Source of the DNA: a virus
Virus record (IMG/VR): IMGVR_UViG_3300025132_000360
Span: 1-21,753 of that record
Direction: 5' to 3' (one strand)
DNA: 21,753 nucleotides
Notes under the pieces: generated by a model
Databases searched by the model: none
What the model saw: the letters and a program-made list of their open reading frames with translations, nothing else
What the model was told of the DNA's origin: nothing
Shown: positions 1,492 to 20,016 of the stretch, one piece after another
Numbering within the stretch: position 1 is the stretch's first letter
How the letters are laid out: the number at the start of each line of letters is the position of its first letter
Made by a program: the position numbers and the translations under genes

Positions 1492-1679
1492 GCTTCCTCC
1501 TTTTCTATCAGTATAACTATATACTGTGTTGGTATATGTTTTCTTTTCAGAATTTTAGTTCTGTATGATATACCTAGTTTTACTAATTTGTAAGTGAAAC
1601 TATCATAGTCTGAGATAGTGTCAAACGATGTTGACTTACTACCTTCGTATGAATCTGTAAAATTTTTAAGAACTTCCAA
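1488..1679 (-). CDS. Hypothetical small protein downstream of terS, start uncertain
   Basis: An open frame follows the terS stop and ends in TGA overlapping the next ATG (ATGA). The part beyond terS encodes about 60 residues, with a plausible mixed helix/strand pattern and a hydrophobic C-terminal strand (TQYIVILIEKEEA). There is no ATG in this portion. The start given here is a TTG (1679-1677) just before the terS stop, with no clear Shine-Dalgarno. The frame stays open upstream within terS to about 1811, but that stretch reads like a shadow of terS. Options are a TTG start by translational coupling to terS, or a +1 frameshift extending terS. Function is unknown. Coding nature is supported by the clean overlap with the following gene and by the absence of any other content. 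Confidence 0.55.
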   Translation of the reverse strand: MEVLKNFTDSYEGSKSTSFDTISDYDSFTYKLVKLGISYRTKILKRKHIPTQYIVILIEKEEA

Positions 1680-2142
1680 TCGCTGTTGTATCTTCAACTG
1701 CTTCAGCGTCGATAACAGTTGCTGGATGTTCTTGTCCTCCGAGATTGATTGTGATCTTAACTCCTCCACCTGCACCCTCCGTTGTAACGTCACCCTTAGG
1801 TTCAAGCCCACCCCACTTAACTGTGGATTTAATAAGGTCAGCTTTAACCGCAGCCGAAGTGTCTGGACTGTGGATTAAACTCCAAGAGGTTGTTAGTAGT
1901 TCTTCTGCTTGAGCACGAGCTTTCAGTTTGAAAGTCATGCCTTTCTCTTTAATCTCATCTCTATAAGAAGTTACCTTCTTAAGAAATATAGGATCTTTAT
2001 TAAACACAAGTATATCTTCGGCAGTAATATTATGCCGATCTTTTACTTCGTCTAAAGTCTCCCCGCTGCCTTCTAACATAAGTGCTGTATCAAAAGCAAA
2101 ACGGTCAGACCACTTTGTGTGTTTCAAAGGTATCGTGTCCAT
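1666..2142 (-). CDS. terS: Putative terminase small subunit
   Basis: The 158-residue protein sits first in the leftward unit, two genes upstream of terL. Its N-terminal half carries a helix-turn-helix-like stretch (about residues 28-50: EGSGETLDEVKDRHNITAEDILVFNKD) followed by a helical segment (FLKKVTSYRDEIKEKGMTFKLKARAQAEELL). The C-terminal part is an acidic, Gly-rich tail. This matches small terminases, which recognise the packaging site and feed DNA to TerL. The assignment relies on position and architecture rather than a diagnostic motif. The ATG has no Shine-Dalgarno. A strong promoter lies only a few bases upstream (2151-2178), so the message may be leaderless. An internal start at the Met of MLEGSG also lacks a ribosome site. 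Confidence 0.75.
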   Translation of the reverse strand: MDTIPLKHTKWSDRFAFDTALMLEGSGETLDEVKDRHNITAEDILVFNKDPIFLKKVTSYRDEIKEKGMTFKLKARAQAEELLTTSWSLIHSPDTSAAVKADLIKSTVKWGGLEPKGDVTTEGAGGGVKITINLGGQEHPATVIDAEAVEDTTAIGSS

Positions 2143-2966: not shown

Positions 2967-2973
2967 GAAGAAC

Positions 2974-3006
2974 GGAGGGAGCCTAACAAGCTCTCTCCTT
3001 TTTTTT
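2974..3006 (+). terminator. Strong rho-independent terminator
   Basis: GGAGGGAGC (2974-2982) pairs with GCTCTCTCC (2990-2998) around a 7-base loop, with one G-U pair, and is followed by eight T (2999-3006). It closes the two-gene early unit from P1. Confidence 0.9.
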
Positions 3007-3133
3007 GTCTTTTATTTTTAATAATATATATCCCATACGTCGGGGGGTTTCGGCACGCCTTTATCTTAGATTAAACGTCAAGTTTAAACTTTAGTTTACA
3101 GGTTGTAGCACATTTGGTGTAAAGTTATACATC

Positions 3134-3184
3134 TATCTAGTATCTAAAAGCATACTTGACACAACATATTGAGTTTTAGATAGC
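3134..3184 (+). promoter_or_regulatory. Promoter-like element P2 framed by an inverted repeat
   Basis: The 11-mer CATACTTGACA (3151-3161) is identical to that of P1 (2331-2341). The -10 at a 17-base spacer (GATAGC, 3179-3184) matches only 3/6. TATCTAAAA (3141-3149) and TTTTAGATA (3174-3182) form a perfect 9-bp dyad that brackets the -35 and covers the -10 zone, as expected for an operator. Promoter activity is uncertain; the dyad is plain. Confidence 0.5.
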
Positions 3185-3254
3185 GAAAGTTTACAACAGG
3201 ATGTCCAAATGGCCTTGGTTTACAGGGGTTTACACCATATACGCAGGAGAATAC

Positions 3255-3278
3255 TATCTAAACTATCTAAATTATCTA
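3255..3278. repeat. Three TATCTA iterons at 9-bp period
   Basis: TATCTA occurs at 3255, 3264 and 3273, exactly 9 bp apart, within units TATCTAAAC, TATCTAAAT and TATCTATTA. A two-copy reverse-strand version at the same period (TTAGATACT twice, 3362-3379) lies about 90 bp downstream, so the clusters face each other. Confidence 0.8.
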
Positions 3279-3361
3279 TTAAATTTACATACATCACTCT
3301 CCAAATCTAAATCTAGGGTAATATAAAGGAATTCGCGTAGCCAAGGATTATCTTCTAAAAC

Positions 3362-3379
3362 TTAGATACTTTAGATACT
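3362..3379. repeat. Two tandem TTAGATACT units (reverse-oriented iterons)
   Basis: TTAGATACT is repeated perfectly in tandem at 9-bp period. It is the reverse complement of the TATCTA(A) unit at 3255-3278, giving a head-to-head arrangement of iteron clusters. Confidence 0.8.
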
Positions 3380-3511
3380 TCCTCTCAACACGTTGATATA
3401 CAATAGAAACTCTTATCTAATACCTGATATAAACCACAACATACACACAGATAGTGCCACCTACCAGTAGATAACTAGTAGTTTAAACTTGTCGCTTTCT
3501 CTGTGTACCGG

Positions 3512-3547
3512 GCCAAACTTGACAAACCGACCTCGCCGAGCCAAACT
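3512..3547 (+). promoter_or_regulatory. Promoter-like element P3 with flanking direct repeats
   Basis: TTGACA (3519-3524) lies upstream of the second paralogue. GCCAAACT occurs at 3512-3519, running into the -35, and again exactly 28 bp on at 3540-3547. The second copy covers the -10 position (CAAACT at a 17-base spacer, 3/6). P1 has the same 28-bp direct-repeat layout with a different repeat word. The -10 is poor, so an activator may be needed, or the true start may be elsewhere. Confidence 0.45.
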
Positions 3548-3609
3548 GGGTTTGTCTTTCGGGGTTTTCCCTTAAGGCGATTTTATCAACCATTTAACTG
3601 GAGGTCAAT

Positions 3610-3900
3610 ATGGCTAAAATATACGAAGGTAATGTATCTATCTTTAAGAATACTAAGAACAAGATTGTTGTGAAAGCAGATCCTGAAGGTCAGTATAATG
3701 CTGATTCAGTTGATGCTCTTTCCAAGACAATGACTGAGCTTGGTACTAAGTTGAAGGCTGAAGTAAACTTCTTCATTCCTGAAACTAACACTGGTGACTT
3801 GAAAGCAATGTTACTAGTGAATCGTTGGGGTGCTCCTTATGTAGCATTCTTACCAACATCTACAACCGGAACTAAGAGCAAGGTTGAGAAGCTTGCTTAA
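3610..3900 (+). CDS. Early protein, paralogue B of a duplicated small family
   Basis: This 96-residue soluble protein is clearly related to the gene at 2436. Shared elements are MxxI(F/Y)EGNVS at the N-terminus, NTK at about 14-16, a core reading LLVNRWGAP (about 69-77) and TKSKVEKLA at the C-terminus. Its ribosome site is CTGGAGGT (3598-3605), the same word as for paralogue A. It follows the repeat-rich control region and is followed by a hairpin terminator, so it may be expressed as a nearly monocistronic message with read-through into the next genes. Function is unknown. The two copies differ in codon choice and in the middle of the protein, so the duplication is old. Confidence 0.85.
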   Translation: MAKIYEGNVSIFKNTKNKIVVKADPEGQYNADSVDALSKTMTELGTKLKAEVNFFIPETNTGDLKAMLLVNRWGAPYVAFLPTSTTGTKSKVEKLA

Positions 3901-5606: not shown

Positions 5607-6458
5607 ATGAAACTAAGTGACAAAGCACTATTGGTGCAACTCAATGTATCACAGTGGACTGCTCGTAAGTATGACAAACGTGCTACTGAACAGGTAGCAC
5701 AGCAGAACAATACTACGATTGGTGCAGGTAGATACAACAAATCGCTGTTACCTATGAATGATTATCTAGATAATGTTCATAAGAAAACTACAGCTATTCG
5801 TGCCAAGTATTATGCCAATACCCTACCATGGGGTATTGAGGGTACGATGTTGCTACCATCTGCAAACTACTTGAACTTCATGACTGAGTTCAGGAATGAG
5901 AAAGCAGAATGGCAACAACTTGTGGATAGATTTTGGAATGAGTATCCACGATTGAAACAGGATGCACAACGATTCCTTGGTAATCTCTACAATGCTAGTG
6001 ATTATCCTATGCTTCATGAGATACAGCGCAGATTCAACATGGACTTGGCTGTGTTCCCTGTACCATCTAATGACTTTCGTGTTCAGATTTCAGATGAGGA
6101 ACTAAGTCGTATCCAATCTGATGTTGAGACGAGAGTACAAGATGCGGCTGAACAAGCAATGAAGGAAGCTTGGCAACGTCTGTATGACAAAGTCAAACAT
6201 ATGGCTGAGAAACTAGCAGACCCTAAAGCTATCTTCAGAGATACTTTAATTGATAATACCAAGGAAGTTTGTTCGGTTCTATCAAGACTTAACTTTGCTG
6301 ATGACCCTGACTTGGAGACTATGCGTCAACAAGTTGAACAGTCATTGGTTAACAACCACCCTGACAGTTTGCGTAATGACCCTGACTTAAGACGTGTAAA
6401 AGCGGCTGAAGCTAAGGACATTATGAACAAGATGGGTGCATTTATGGGAGGTAACTAA
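5607..6458 (+). CDS. DUF3150-like coiled-coil protein of the AAA+/VWA cassette
   Basis: This 283-residue, highly helical and charged protein has no membrane segment. The middle third (about 160-205) has a coiled-coil-like pattern (EELSRIQSDVETRVQDAAEQ and on). It sits between the MoxR-like ATPase and the VWA metallopeptidase, the place where DUF3150 proteins are found in bacterial and phage cassettes. The N-terminal half (SQWTARKYDKRATEQV, then LPWGIEGTMLLPSANYLNF) also recalls that family. The ribosome site GGAGGT at 5597-5602 supports the start. The stop shares one base with the next ATG. It may be an adaptor linking ATPase and VWA subunits; this is inference from context. Confidence 0.6.
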   Translation: MKLSDKALLVQLNVSQWTARKYDKRATEQVAQQNNTTIGAGRYNKSLLPMNDYLDNVHKKTTAIRAKYYANTLPWGIEGTMLLPSANYLNFMTEFRNEKAEWQQLVDRFWNEYPRLKQDAQRFLGNLYNASDYPMLHEIQRRFNMDLAVFPVPSNDFRVQISDEELSRIQSDVETRVQDAAEQAMKEAWQRLYDKVKHMAEKLADPKAIFRDTLIDNTKEVCSVLSRLNFADDPDLETMRQQVEQSLVNNHPDSLRNDPDLRRVKAAEAKDIMNKMGAFMGGN

Positions 6459-12432: not shown

Positions 12433-13092
12433 ATGGACATAAAACTAACACACTCATACTCATCTATTAAGATGTATGAGAACTGTCCAAAGCGTTACTA
12501 CCATCAACGTGTTATGAAAGAAGTACAAGACACAGGTAGTGACGCAACAAAATATGGTGAAAGAGTACATGCTAGTTTAGAACACCGACTAGTAGATAGT
12601 AAACCATTGTCTGATGGTACAGAAAAGTACGAACCTTTATGTAAAAGTATAGAAAATATGGGTGGAACTTTACTCGCAGAACAACAGCTGTGCCTCAACG
12701 AAAACCTTACACCAACAGGTTGGTGGGAGAAAGACGCATGGTTGAGATCCATCTTAGACGTTCTGATTCTGATAGATGATAAAGCAATAGTCATGGATTG
12801 GAAGACAGGTAAACGTAGACCCGACTTTACACAACTACAATTATTTGCACTACAAGTCTTTAAACATTACCCTAAAATTAAAACAGTACAGTCTACATTT
12901 ATATGGCTAAAAGATATGTCTATGGACTCTGAAACATTTAAAGCTAATCAAACTAATCTAATGTGGTCTGATATGCTTGCTCGTATAGAAAGGATACACC
13001 AATCTGTTGAGCATAATAACTGGCCTGCTAAACCTAGTGGCTTATGTGGTTGGTGTCCTGCAAAAAATATTTGTGAATTTGCAAGAATATAA
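12433..13092 (+). CDS. Cas4/RecB-like PD-(D/E)XK exonuclease with Fe-S cysteines
   Basis: The 219-residue nuclease has GERVHASLEH (H46), ILDV with D109, the MDWK motif (D122, K124) and QLQLFAL (Q135), the order of RecB/Cas4-type exonucleases. Cys18 in ENCPKRYY together with C205, C208 and C214 in CGWCPAKNIC forms the four-cysteine pattern of the 4Fe-4S cluster that pins the ends of this fold. Such phage enzymes resect DNA ends during recombination or degrade host DNA. The next gene is another nuclease, and a SNF2 helicase follows, suggesting a recombination or repair module. Confidence 0.9.
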   Translation: MDIKLTHSYSSIKMYENCPKRYYHQRVMKEVQDTGSDATKYGERVHASLEHRLVDSKPLSDGTEKYEPLCKSIENMGGTLLAEQQLCLNENLTPTGWWEKDAWLRSILDVLILIDDKAIVMDWKTGKRRPDFTQLQLFALQVFKHYPKIKTVQSTFIWLKDMSMDSETFKANQTNLMWSDMLARIERIHQSVEHNNWPAKPSGLCGWCPAKNICEFARI

Positions 13093-15367: not shown

Positions 15368-16063
15368 ATGATTGGTTCTAAACTATCAATTAAAGGCTCA
15401 CGTTTCCATCTTGCGACGGCAGCAGGGGATGCTCAGATTACTGCAACAAGTTTGAACACAGTGATTGTTGGAGCAAACCCTAAGCTGTCTAAGGTATGGT
15501 ATGCAGGTGAATATAGTGTAGATAGAGAATCATCTGCACCTGATTGCTACTCTTTGAATGGTGAAACACCACATGAGAGAAGCGAACTTAAACAGAATGA
15601 CCTATGTGCTTCTTGTCCACAAAACGCATGGGGTTCTAAGATTACGCCTGAAGGTCGCAAGATTAAAGCTTGTGCTGACCAAAAGCGAATAGCTTTGGTA
15701 ATGGCGGATAAGACAGATGGTGAACTCTATCTGTTACAAGTTACACCATCTTCACTAGGCAACTTAAATGCTTATCAGAAGACACTACAAAGCAGAGGTA
15801 TTGCACCTGATATTGCTGTAACAACAATATCTTTTGATACGTCTGTGCGTTTCCCTAAATTAAAATTTTCCTTTGGTGGTTTTAATACAGATGAAATGCA
15901 ACGTAATGTCGATAAACTTATAGGCACCAACGATGTAAAGGTTGTTACAGGTGAAGTTAGTGTAGCCAGTGGGCAAACCCCTGTTGCTTCTGATTTTGGT
16001 TTTTCAGAAGAAGCAGGTTTCAATCAACATGAACATGAACTAGGAGGTTCAAATGACAAATAA
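15368..16063 (+). CDS. Conserved phage protein with a four-cysteine cluster
   Basis: The 231-residue protein carries Cys60 (APDCYSLNG), Cys80 and Cys83 (CASC) and Cys102 (KACADQKR), a likely zinc site, with a PQNAWGSK turn between the pairs. The N-terminal part is strand-rich, and the C-terminus is acidic with GFSEEAGFNQHE. The gene starts immediately after the preceding stop and ends inside the SSB gene, with AGGAGG serving the latter. This genomic company suggests a DNA replication or ssDNA-related role. Its acidic tail, like that of the next gene, could contact replication partners. Confidence 0.75.
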   Translation: MIGSKLSIKGSRFHLATAAGDAQITATSLNTVIVGANPKLSKVWYAGEYSVDRESSAPDCYSLNGETPHERSELKQNDLCASCPQNAWGSKITPEGRKIKACADQKRIALVMADKTDGELYLLQVTPSSLGNLNAYQKTLQSRGIAPDIAVTTISFDTSVRFPKLKFSFGGFNTDEMQRNVDKLIGTNDVKVVTGEVSVASGQTPVASDFGFSEEAGFNQHEHELGGSNDK

Positions 16064-16820
16064 AACTTTTACTACTAATAAAGGTGTTGCGTACTATCCG
16101 TACATTAGCGCACCCGATACTAAATTTGATGAATCAGGACACTATAAAGTTAACCTGTGCCTATCAAAAGAAGAAGCTAAGCCTGCTATCGAATTGATCA
16201 ACAGTCATATACTAGCAGGTATCAAGGCATTGAAGGAAGCTAAGCCTAACAAGCAGGTGAAGCAAGCACCACTACCATACCACGACGAGTTGGACGATGA
16301 GACTGGTGAGCCAACAGGCAATGTTATTATGAAGTTCAAATCAAAGGCGGCTTATAAGCCTGCTGTATTTGATGCTAAAGGTAACATGATGGCTAAACAT
16401 AATATCTATGGTGGCTCTATCATTAAGGTCAGTGGCTCTGCCGCTTTCTACGACTCTCCATCTATTGGAGCAGGAGTAACACTACGTCTTAGAGCAGTAC
16501 AAGTTATTGAGTACGTTGAAGGTACTAGTGGCGCAGGTAAGTTTGGATTCGGTGAAGAAGTTGGGTTCACAGCTGATGAATCAGTTGCTGTAAATGATGA
16601 AGCAGTGGTTGGTAATGGTAATTTATCTATTGATTTAGAGGAAAAACCTGCACCTAAACCTGCACCTAAACCTGTTGCAGAAATGCAACAGTCTGCTCCT
16701 GCACCTAAACCGAAGGCAAGAGTGGTTGAGGAGCCTGCCCCTGCACCAGTTGCATCTAGTGAAGCTGATGACCTAGCGGCAGAGATTGCTAAACTTGTTG
16801 GAGATAATTCTGATGACTAA
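16053..16820 (+). CDS. gp2.5-like ssDNA-binding protein
   Basis: The 255-residue protein has an N-terminal OB-like domain (about 1-170: strands TTNKGVAYYPYIS, YKVNLCL, NIYGGSIIKVSGSAAFY) as in T7 gp2.5 and related phage SSBs. A proline/alanine/lysine linker with repeated PAPKP follows (about 198-230). The protein ends in an acidic tail (about 236-255, SEADDLAAEIAKLVGDNSDD) of the kind that binds polymerase and helicase. It overlaps the upstream gene by 11 bases behind AGGAGG. The DNA of the linker holds tandem CCTGCACCTAAA repeats and an internal hairpin. Confidence 0.85.
   Translation: MTNKTFTTNKGVAYYPYISAPDTKFDESGHYKVNLCLSKEEAKPAIELINSHILAGIKALKEAKPNKQVKQAPLPYHDELDDETGEPTGNVIMKFKSKAAYKPAVFDAKGNMMAKHNIYGGSIIKVSGSAAFYDSPSIGAGVTLRLRAVQVIEYVEGTSGAGKFGFGEEVGFTADESVAVNDEAVVGNGNLSIDLEEKPAPKPAPKPVAEMQQSAPAPKPKARVVEEPAPAPVASSEADDLAAEIAKLVGDNSDD
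16647..16709 (+). repeat. CCTGCACCTAAA repeats and GAAA-capped hairpin inside the SSB gene
   Basis: The 12-mer CCTGCACCTAAA occurs at 16647-16658, 16659-16670 and 16698-16709, encoding the PAPK linker repeats. Between the second and third copies, CTGTTGCA (16672-16679) pairs perfectly with TGCAACAG (16684-16691) around a GAAA tetraloop. Confidence 0.75.
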
Positions 16821-17097
16821 GAATCCTCCTCTTAACTTCAAAAAAGTTGAAGCTTTGAGGAAGCATATGCTTTTAACAACCTCCAATATGGCAGAGTTGT
16901 TAGGTATATCTCGTATGACTTACTACGGATGGGTTAAAGGTAAGCCTGTCCGTGCTAAGAATGATGAGAAAGTACGAGAAATATTAAGGAAAATGCTAGC
17001 CATTCTTAACGATGGATGGCCTCAACCCGAGGTCATAGCACTTGAACAAAAGCAACGCTTTGAAAGGCTTCTTGAGATTTTCAAAGAAAACGAGTAA
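16813..17097 (+). CDS. Helix-turn-helix DNA-binding protein (Cro/XRE-like)
   Basis: This 94-residue protein has an HTH motif in residues about 19-47: MLLTTSNMAELLGISRMTYYGWVKG, with the typical A-LGIS-TY-W pattern. A helical C-terminus (KVREILRKMLAILN, QRFERLLEIFKENE) could dimerise. The ATG lies 8 bases inside the SSB end with GGAG about 10 bases ahead; longer in-frame extensions run into SSB. It sits directly before a perfect inverted repeat (17105-17142) and the primase-helicase gene, a layout that suggests autoregulation or control of the downstream gene. It is the only clear regulator in the window. Confidence 0.85.
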   Translation: MTKNPPLNFKKVEALRKHMLLTTSNMAELLGISRMTYYGWVKGKPVRAKNDEKVREILRKMLAILNDGWPQPEVIALEQKQRFERLLEIFKENE

Positions 17098-17169: not shown

Positions 17170-20016
17170 ATGAACACGTTGGAGTTTCTTCAGCGAGTCC
17201 TGCCGGAAGAAGGATTCTATGTTACTACTGTTATTAATCCTAACGGTAGACAACAAGGGTTTTTTCAAACGGTAGAGGAACTCGCTAAAACATGTGAGAG
17301 ATTAGATAAGACAAATAATAATACTTATTTTGCTATCTCTGCATTTAGAGAAAAAGGCACAAGAAAACAAGATAATGTAAGAGCCACAAAAGTAGTGGCT
17401 ATTGATGTTGATTGTGGCACAAATAAACCATTTCCATCTTGGAAGGAAGGTCTTGTTGCATTAGGTAATTTTGTACAAGAACTTAAATTACCAAAGCCTA
17501 TGATAATCCATTCGGGTAATGGACTACATGCTTACTGGGTATTGACAGAAGAACTAGAACCTAGTGAATGGAAACCATTAGCCGAAGCTATGAAGCAAGC
17601 GGCTATTGCAAAAGAGTTTAAAATTGATGCAGGACTTACAGCTAACAGTGCGTTAGTGTTAAGACCTGTTGGTACACACAATCCTAAGAATGGTAATCAA
17701 GTAAAGCTGTTGGTAGATGCTGAGCCTGTCAAAAGTTTGACACTCAAGGATAAGCTAAGTTATTACTACCGAGCTGCAGCTGCGGGCACAAACGATCACA
17801 CTCGTGACAGCACATTGTTAGATAACCTTGCAGTCAAGAAAGAGTTTCCACCTGCTGTTGGGTCTGTAGTTGCTAGTAAGTGTAAACAGATTGAATGGGC
17901 AATAGATAACCAAGATAAAGTAGATGAACCATTATGGTATGACTTAGTTGGGGTAGCCGCTTATTGTGTAGACCCTGAGAATACTGCATTAGAATGGAGT
18001 AAAGGTCATACAAAGTTTAGTGAGAAGGACACCTTACAGAAACTTACTCACTGGAGAGAGTCTGCGACTGGCCCGGCAACATGTACGAAGTTTGAAAACG
18101 ATAGACCAAACGGATGTAAGGGTTGTAAATATAAAGGTAAGATAGGTTCACCTGCAAGATTAGGTGTTCAGTATCAAGAGATAGCTGTGTCTGAGGAAGC
18201 ACCTGATTCAACAGCTAATTCTATTCCAATACCTAAACCATTTAAAAGAACAAGAGATGGGATAAAGGTAACGATTGATGATACTGATATAGATGTCTGT
18301 AAATTTGATGTCTACCCTGTAGCATATGGATATGATGAATCACTAGGCTACGAAACAGTTAGGTTCCACTGGCACAGAACACATATGGGTTGGACAGAAC
18401 TCGTGTTAAGGCAAGCGCACCTTACTGATGGCAATCGTGAATTTGCTACAGCTATAGCAGACCAAGGAATAGTATTATACAATAAAAGACAAACGGAGTA
18501 TTTTCAGCTTATGTTAAGAACATATATGGATGAGTTGAGACAAATCCGTAAGATGACTAACTTGTACGCAACTATGGGTTGGAAAGAAAAGAATACGGCA
18601 TTTGTCTTAGGTAACACATTAATTAGGCGTGATGCCAATGGTGTAGTTAATGAAGAAGAAATTAATCTAGCATCTACAGTACAAAGACAAGGTGCAGAAT
18701 TATATAATAGAAAAGGTTCAGCAGAAGAATGGTCTGCGTTAACCCAGATCCTAGAGAAAGGACACTTACATGCACACATGTTTGTGTTAGGTGTAGGATT
18801 ATCTGCACCACTCTACAACTTTACTGGACTAAAGGGTTTGACTGTGTCTCTCTACGGCCCTACCGGAGGTGGTAAAACACTCGCGCAGTATTGGGCACAG
18901 TCAATCTATGGTAATCCTGACAAGTTACATTTTGCGGCTAAGTATACGCAGAACAGTTTGTTTTCTAGGTTAGGTACATATGCAAATCTACCTTTAACTA
19001 TAGATGAAGTTACCATGATGAACGATAAAGAGGTCGGTGACTTCTGTTATTGGGTGTCACAAGGTAGAGATAAAGCAAGACTTAATCGTAATGCTGAAGA
19101 ACGTGATGCTAAAACATGGGCAACACCTGTCATAGTATCTACCAACAAGTCTCTACAAAGTAAACTGATTGCATCCGGACTAGATACAGATGCGCAGATG
19201 GCTAGGTTATTAGAAATAACTGTACCTGCCACACCATTATTCACTAGAGATACTAATGTTGGTAAGAGAATATATGAATCTATCCATTCTCATTATGGTC
19301 ATGTAGGTCGTACTTATCTAAGAAATCTAGTTGAGATGGGTGAAGCAGGGGTACAATCAGCCATTGCAGAAGCATCATCAACATTCCGTGCTAGGTATAA
19401 AGCACAGTTCTCAGGCCAAGAAAGATACTGGGAGCAGTCTATTATATTAGCTGACTTAGGTATGAAGCTAGCTGATGAATGGGGATTAATACAGTTTGAT
19501 TATAGAAAAGCTACTGAATGGATTCTATCTCAGATTGGCGCTATCCGTAGAACAGTTAAAGAAAACCAGTTTGATTCATTTGATTTAATAGCTGAGTACA
19601 TGGCAGACTTTGCAGAAGCACAAGTAACTGTAATGCACACAGCAGGACAGAAACCTGCACCTGACTTTAGTCGTATGCCTAGAAATGATATTCGTGTACG
19701 TCTTGATGTATATCGTAAGTCAGCAGCAGATCCATTTGATAAAGGTACAATGATGATAGACCGTACCCACTTCCGTAAATGGTTGTCTGTTCGAGGAGCT
19801 GACTACAAATCACTCAAAGAAGAACTTGTTCTTGAGAATGCAATAGCTACTCCTAAGTCTGAGAAAGCATCTATGGGTAAAGATACACCTGTTAAGTTAG
19901 CACAAACTTATGTAATGGGACTCAACCTAATACATCCGAGATTCCAAAACTTATTGGAGAATGCTGACACAGTTGCTGATGATCTGACTTACGGACAATT
20001 TTCTATGGTGAAGTGA
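17170..20016 (+). CDS. Primase-helicase (AEP-like primase fused to DUF927-type helicase)
   Basis: The 948-residue replication protein has an N-terminal primase-like region (AIDVDCG, D79/D81; HSGNGLHAYWVL, H120; DAGLT and RPVGTHNPKNG at about 153-174) matching the archaeo-eukaryotic primase layout of phage RepB-type proteins. A cysteine cluster (C305, C316, C319 in CTKF...CKGC) follows. The C-terminal half is a DUF927-like helicase with Walker A GPTGGGKT (563-570), Walker B LTIDEV (D612/E613) and sensor PVIVSTN (653-659). It primes and unwinds DNA for the polymerase. The start has only a weak AGG ribosome site and follows the 11-bp dyad, suggesting separate control from the SSB group. It overlaps the endolysin start. 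Confidence 0.9.
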   Translation: MNTLEFLQRVLPEEGFYVTTVINPNGRQQGFFQTVEELAKTCERLDKTNNNTYFAISAFREKGTRKQDNVRATKVVAIDVDCGTNKPFPSWKEGLVALGNFVQELKLPKPMIIHSGNGLHAYWVLTEELEPSEWKPLAEAMKQAAIAKEFKIDAGLTANSALVLRPVGTHNPKNGNQVKLLVDAEPVKSLTLKDKLSYYYRAAAAGTNDHTRDSTLLDNLAVKKEFPPAVGSVVASKCKQIEWAIDNQDKVDEPLWYDLVGVAAYCVDPENTALEWSKGHTKFSEKDTLQKLTHWRESATGPATCTKFENDRPNGCKGCKYKGKIGSPARLGVQYQEIAVSEEAPDSTANSIPIPKPFKRTRDGIKVTIDDTDIDVCKFDVYPVAYGYDESLGYETVRFHWHRTHMGWTELVLRQAHLTDGNREFATAIADQGIVLYNKRQTEYFQLMLRTYMDELRQIRKMTNLYATMGWKEKNTAFVLGNTLIRRDANGVVNEEEINLASTVQRQGAELYNRKGSAEEWSALTQILEKGHLHAHMFVLGVGLSAPLYNFTGLKGLTVSLYGPTGGGKTLAQYWAQSIYGNPDKLHFAAKYTQNSLFSRLGTYANLPLTIDEVTMMNDKEVGDFCYWVSQGRDKARLNRNAEERDAKTWATPVIVSTNKSLQSKLIASGLDTDAQMARLLEITVPATPLFTRDTNVGKRIYESIHSHYGHVGRTYLRNLVEMGEAGVQSAIAEASSTFRARYKAQFSGQERYWEQSIILADLGMKLADEWGLIQFDYRKATEWILSQIGAIRRTVKENQFDSFDLIAEYMADFAEAQVTVMHTAGQKPAPDFSRMPRNDIRVRLDVYRKSAADPFDKGTMMIDRTHFRKWLSVRGADYKSLKEELVLENAIATPKSEKASMGKDTPVKLAQTYVMGLNLIHPRFQNLLENADTVADDLTYGQFSMVK

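Follow-up and report, generated by a model that had tools for sequence, protein, structure and literature searches.

A noncoding gap in the virus record studied here (21.7 kb, analysed over its whole length and referred to as the window) holds ten copies of the hexamer TATCTA/TAGATA, and their arrangement recurs in a deeply diverged, mainly environmental phage lineage; metagenomes are the sole source of its close members. In this array we see a conserved element on which a nucleoprotein complex would assemble at many sites and whose specificity switches in a coordinated manner. The evidence on its function is circumstantial and favours an origin: with moderate confidence, we take the array for a replication origin with iterons to which the phage's own DUF927 primase-helicase binds through its C-terminal domain. 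No earlier description of the array was found in the openly accessible papers that were searched.

Genomic setting and composition of the array

In the window, the gene for the large terminase subunit (TerL) occupies positions 2-1381 on the minus strand and is adjoined by a putative small subunit gene (TerS, Table 1). The early and replication block on the plus strand encodes a MoxR-type ATPase, a metallopeptidase-like protein, a family-A DNA polymerase and an exonuclease, followed by an SNF2-type helicase, a gp2.5-like SSB, an HTH protein (16813-17097) and a DUF927 primase-helicase of 948 residues. Immediately downstream of the array, the early operon begins at 3610; the putative TerS gene, transcribed divergently, is about 1 kb away from the array and the primase-helicase gene about 14 kb away. 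The array is flanked by genes for two paralogous small proteins of about 36% identity (2436-2729 before and 3610-3900 after the array), which are without a Pfam or PHROG match and are kept in many relatives. A nucleotide search of the region against annotated phage records gave no match.

An earlier note, made from the sequence alone, had described ten TATCTA/TAGATA copies between 3134 and 3473 in one noncoding gap, and all ten were recovered there, six in forward and four in reverse orientation within the gap 2967-3609 (Table 1). The 9-bp period that it had seen in the forward triple and the reverse pair is exact, and the first forward pair is 7 bp apart. In 5000 dinucleotide shuffles of the gap the copy number averaged 0.75, peaked at 5 and never reached ten; ten copies of any hexamer occurred in 6 of the 5000. 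Counting the hexamer over the entire window revealed no equal density elsewhere, with 29 copies per kb within the array and 1.4 per kb, roughly twenty-fold fewer, in the rest. The 39 copies in total against 17.6 expected nevertheless amount to a mild excess outside the array too.

Table 1. Coordinates of the array, of neighbouring elements and of its proposed reader in the window
Feature	Position	Strand	Remarks
Putative TerS gene	1666..2142	-	adjoins TerL; identity from position and size
Hexamer site 1, forward	3134..3139	+	exact TATCTA; invariant in the 17-phage alignment A1
Hexamer site 2, forward	3141..3146	+	TATCTA; invariant in A1; 7-9 bp downstream of site 1 in almost every relative
Promoter-like element	3156..3184	+	TTGACA (3156-3161), 17 bp, GATAGC (3179-3184); overlaps site 3
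Hexamer site 3, reverse	3177..3182	-	TAGATA; 98% conserved; overlaps the -10-like hexamer of the promoter-like element
Hexamer site 4, forward, triple	3255..3260	+	100% conserved; 78 bp downstream of site 3 in almost every TATCTA relative
Hexamer site 5, forward, triple, 9-bp step	3264..3269	+	TATCTA; relatives' layout and A1
Hexamer site 6, forward, triple, 9-bp step	3273..3278	+	TATCTA; TATATA in several relatives
Conserved block GTAGC..(A)TTA	3337..3350	+	precedes the reverse pair; A1; by eye also in L053, L065 and L055
Hexamer site 7, reverse, pair	3363..3368	-	TAGATA; relatives' layout and A1
Hexamer site 8, reverse, pair, 9-bp step	3372..3377	-	TAGATA; relatives' layout and A1
IHF-like site	3386..3398	-	exact match to WATCAANNNNTTR
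Hexamer site 9, forward	3414..3419	+	TATCTA; less conserved, 89%
Hexamer site 10, reverse	3468..3473	-	TAGATA; least conserved, 82%
Promoter-like element, gene at 3610	3519..3547	+	TTGACA (3519-3524), 17 bp, CAAACT (3542-3547)
DUF927 primase-helicase, proposed array reader	17170..20016	+	Pfam DUF927 E=1e-30 (1.4e-30)
C-terminal region, residues 690-948	19237..20013	+	helix-helix-hairpin (winged-helix-like) topology; AF2 mean pLDDT 80.7
S901	19870-19872	+	one side of predicted hairpin loop (wing); tracks motif class
A911	19900-19902	+	other side of predicted hairpin loop (wing); tracks motif class

Conservation of the layout and coordinated change of the hexamer

Scans of viral contigs by means of the ATPase provided considerably more than 200 related loci, with overlaps among some, and the comparison of the gap among these relatives revealed a strongly conserved array. 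With forward and reverse copies written as > and < and distances in bp, the layout of the TATCTA class reads >7-9> 35-36 < 78 > 9 > (9 >) ~90 < 9 < ~42 > ~54 <; it is present in nearly every locus whose gap is present, and its spacing is repeated almost base for base in about 100 related loci. Further lineages with an ATPase identity of only 60-68% still keep it. In alignment A1 the mean majority frequency was 0.97 for site columns, as against 0.67 for the other columns within the array.

Six relatives with records of about 52-55 kb contain one array each, with 8-10 copies, close to the divergence of early and late genes, and no second cluster was found in them, other 400-bp stretches holding at most four copies. 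One relative of 53.6 kb (G005, L089-L091) has an exact terminal repeat of 123 bases, probably a circular assembly overlap. The GC skew, which the earlier note had proposed to plot, was examined in these six relatives: the global minimum fell within about 1.5 kb of the array in four of the six (G004, G005, G007 and G009) and was hidden by the linear cut of the record in G001 and G003, but it does not discriminate between readings because it coincides with the early/late gene divergence.

For distant relatives, motif classes were determined by an unbiased hexamer search of the corresponding gap. The same layout carries AATCTA/GATCTA in L053, L098-L107, L201, L170 and L148, AATCTG mixed with AATCTA in L189-L206, and TAGGTA in L210, L215 and L217, the class assignment being weak, with few sites, for the most diverged members (e.g., L157, L238, L055 and L074). 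Unrelated short tandem repeats occur in the early region of L152, L155 and L181 (ACGGAA at 9-bp steps and 4-bp microsatellites). The sites thus switch hexamer all together while the spacing is unchanged, and therefore a trans-acting protein must read them; a coordinated switch of this kind would result from a change in one DNA-binding protein. The conserved spacing, the preservation of sites amid diverged DNA, the joint change of motif and the single array per genome bear out the description as an iteron array given in the earlier note.

Short repeats at steps of 8-11 bp in both orientations also characterise the partition centromeres that ribbon-helix-helix proteins read. We give a centromere, or an assembly site for some other phage protein, a slim chance, given that the searched window proteins included no recognisable partition ATPase or ribbon-helix-helix protein.

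IHF-like sites and promoter-like elements

In the layout, IHF-like sites occupy fixed places. Of 23 non-redundant arrays, 18 match WATCAANNNNTTR with at most one mismatch directly after the reverse pair, where 2.1 would be expected, and seven match it exactly there (0.13 expected). The 78-bp gap contained it with at most one mismatch in 13 of the 23 (2.9 expected), whereas matches in three control intervals stayed at chance level. The window's own 78-bp gap has no match to WATCAANNNNTTR within one mismatch. Judging from these matches, IHF would be expected to bind here.

Clusters of sites around IHF-like matches resemble the layout of lambda attP, where an integrase occupies arm-type sites together with IHF. 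A search for the tyrosine recombinase family PF00589 was, however, negative in all 13 relatives' records, most of them longer than 45 kb, while the control search was positive in 14 of 14 genomes. The lack of a tyrosine integrase in these 13 relatives makes an attachment site very unlikely, and its probability is close to negligible.

Two promoter-like elements, one inside and one after the array (Table 1), may act as promoters. TTGACA of the first is kept in most A1 sequences, and the second contains AACTTKACA, which is conserved in A1. Copies of this motif precede the genes at 2436 (copy at 2189) and 3610 (copy at 3516); one lies reversed at 3118, and others are at 13091 and 13156. Several of the copies are upstream of genes, and the motif resembles a -35 promoter element with an extension or the site of a regulator.

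The protein that reads the array

The primase-helicase is related to the self-loading helicases of staphylococcal mobile elements. Searches against the PDB retrieved SCCmec Cch (5dgk, E=3e-10) and SaPIbov1 Rep (8tch, E=9e-7), and the NCBIfam model Cch1 was matched at 2e-14, below the model's cut-off. With the model of the C-terminal region, the top three Foldseek matches were 5dgk_B, 5dgk_A and 8tch_A (probability 0.96-1.00); these were the sole convincing fold matches, with modest E-values (4e-3 to 1e-2) and low TM-scores (0.30-0.34). In the model, we infer that helix 176-185, helix 190-199 and hairpin 210-230 form a winged-helix-like unit. SaPI Rep recognises its iteron origin by the C-terminal domain (Ubeda 2007, as cited in PMC7581432), and the isolated C-terminal domain of Cch2 binds the Cch2 repeats (PMC7581432). 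In mobile elements, DUF927 helicase domains are found fused to primases (PMC5862659). A "putative integrase protein" of Rhizobium phage RHph_TM3_14A (L448, MN988472, 42239-45322) aligns with the window's primase-helicase, and its annotation is likely wrong.

We compared how well the candidate proteins follow the hexamer. Columns that tell TATCTA and AATCTA genomes apart, one misfit being allowed, numbered six in the primase-helicase and five, mostly in the ragged C-terminal part, in TerS; there was one each in the SNF2-type helicase, the gene at 5607 and the gene at 15368, and none in TerL, the ATPase, the polymerase or the HTH protein. Residue 901 of the primase-helicase is Ser in TATCTA genomes and Tyr or Phe in AATCTA genomes, and residue 911 is Ala, Ser or Pro in the former and Gly in the latter; in both positions the TATCTA genomes include G029 and G031, which acquired their class separately. 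Exceptions are G040 (TATCTA/TATCTG), which is of the AATCTA type at both residues, and G028 with Met at 901. Among 39 genomes, the motif class changes four times on the tree of the primase-helicase C-terminal region, as against six times on those of the ATPase and two more genes.

The per-column phylogenetic test, with only five switches, yielded nothing significant after multiple testing (p=0.06 for S901), and in the phylogenetic co-change tests, which are without power at 5-6 switches, nothing survived this correction. Per-column mutual information is confounded by phylogeny and was set aside as unusable because many genes score high. The partial Mantel value of the primase-helicase was about 0-0.15, below that of TerS.

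G029 and G031 (L309 and L312/L313) carry TATCTA arrays though they are nested in an AATCTA clade by their other genes. Their primase-helicase is 57% identical to those of their sisters, where 67-68% is normal in the clade, and their other genes show normal identity. It looks as though the primase-helicase gene, despite its distance of about 14 kb from the array, was exchanged for a distant allele.

In a semi-blind check, a domain search led to a new group of proteins with S901/A911, for which TATCTA was predicted. All seven geometry-consistent records (G067, G068, G072, G074, G082, G083 and G085) carried TATCTA 9-bp tandems in the expected layout, and the RATCTA tandem was absent from these seven. 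Many other records of the group had neither tandem; they are mostly fragments but also include the 49-kb G076, examined with the strict pattern. A tandem in G088, a single pattern match inside the primase-helicase gene, was judged to be due to chance. The check is supportive but not fully independent because the group resembles the window's clade in the C-terminal domain. Taken from the sequence comparisons, the primase-helicase is likely the reader of the array.

The earlier note had named the HTH protein encoded at 16813-17097 as the candidate binder, which is not supported: its HTH region hardly varies across the motif classes, and its partial Mantel value is about zero. The second function suggested in that note is a multi-site operator; at such an operator, or enhancer, a phage regulator on the hexamers would control the early operon from 3610. 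The operon directly downstream, the TTGACA elements within and after the array and the overlap of site 3 with a -10-like hexamer speak for such a function, but an ordinary repressor operator is much smaller and less rigidly spaced than the array, the six long relatives contain no other array, and the phage's HTH protein lacks residues that track the motif. We regard an operator as unlikely if taken as the sole function; since origins are often autoregulated, an operator may exist alongside an origin instead of competing with that reading.

TerS is another protein whose variation partly follows the hexamer. Its tree, like that of the primase-helicase, needs four class changes (34 taxa with TerS), its partial Mantel value is, together with that of VRR-NUC, one of the two highest among widely present genes, and at its position M22 TATCTA phages have a hydrophobic residue, most AATCTA phages Thr or Arg. 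Together with the nearby putative TerS gene and the IHF-like sites, these data would fit a packaging-initiation site (cos or pac), in which TerS binds the hexamers, IHF bends the DNA and TerL cuts. At lambda cosB, the R sites of gpNu1 likewise surround an IHF bend near the terminase genes, though these sites are fewer and longer than those of the array, and the covariation fits TerS less well in one clade. This clade (L053/L098-L107) combines AATCTA arrays with a TATCTA-like TerS that has M22 and a mean identity of 79% to TerS of the TATCTA class and 69% to that of the AATCTA class; the M22 association is also broken in L181. Furthermore, TerS was not replaced at the G029/G031 switch, the contig ends of near-complete records vary in their position with respect to the array (virion ends are not visible in assemblies), and physical linkage alone could explain the co-inheritance of TerS and array. 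Packaging initiation is in our view a less likely function of the array, though one that keeps some weight.

Comparison with known replication systems

SaPIbov1 Rep and SCCmec Cch and Cch2 are, like the phage protein, DUF927-type self-loading helicases, and the C-terminal domain of these proteins recognises an origin of multiple short iterons (PMC7581432); in the window, multiple short iterons lie in a single noncoding region. The phage protein differs by about 400 extra N-terminal residues with matches to primase-like families, and the array differs by its IHF-like sites and by hexamers that span 340 bp in both orientations with 9-bp steps. While the SaPI origin is located directly downstream of rep, an arrangement that its function does not require, the array at 3134-3473 is far from the helicase gene at 17170-20016; it would thus be SaPI-like in mechanism but is not a SaPI-type replicon.

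The alpha protein of phage P4 is another primase-helicase fusion; it binds short type I iterons, present in both orientations, at ori and crr. These are two separate regions as opposed to the one array here. The iteron plasmids pSC101 and R6K combine iterons, IHF and AT-rich DNA as the array does, but their iterons are direct repeats of about 20-22 bp read by Rep proteins of another fold.

The nearest isolate by TerL is Pseudomonas phage Rollin (L447, OR577172; 44% identity in TerL and 25% in the primase-helicase). In the reverse complement of its positions 260-680, an unannotated part of the record, TATGCA occurs at > 57 < 70 > 9 > 9 > 225 < 22 < 22 <, with an exact IHF-like match, AATCAACCACTTA, near this array. 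Repeated palindromes of the AAGGTAGTAACTTGCTACCTTTT type are found in the first 600 bases of Rollin. The hexamer scan used on Rollin detected no clear array in the syntenic early region of RHph_TM3_14A. Given that a similar array is present in the cultured, distantly related Rollin, its function could be tested without cultivating the hosts of the metagenome phages.

A proposed model of initiation and its implications

Beyond an iteron array that is read by one protein, we infer the following steps. About ten hexamer iterons of fixed orientation and spacing would be bound by the winged-helix-like C-terminal domain of the primase-helicase, while host IHF would introduce bends next to the site clusters, at fixed places, and thereby allow the clusters to be gathered into one nucleoprotein complex. 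The helicase could then load itself in the AT-rich interval, prime and start replication, as SaPI Rep does at SaPI origins. Where the specificity of the initiator drifts or its gene is replaced, all sites would switch hexamer and the geometry would stay. We see an even chance that this fuller account is right, i.e., that a rigid, IHF-bent origin has been kept across the lineage while its hexamer was rewritten several times at all of its roughly ten sites, in step with the specificity or the replacement of the distantly encoded DUF927 primase-helicase, in the manner of matched initiator-origin swaps.

If true, replication of a widespread lineage of environmental phages would originate at the array, which would link these phages to the helicase initiators of SaPI and SCCmec elements. 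The fixed spacing together with the IHF-like sites makes the geometry of the proposed initiation complex testable. The lineage would moreover offer a ready set of matched and mismatched pairs of initiator and iterons, which may show how a helicase of this type reads and opens its origin.
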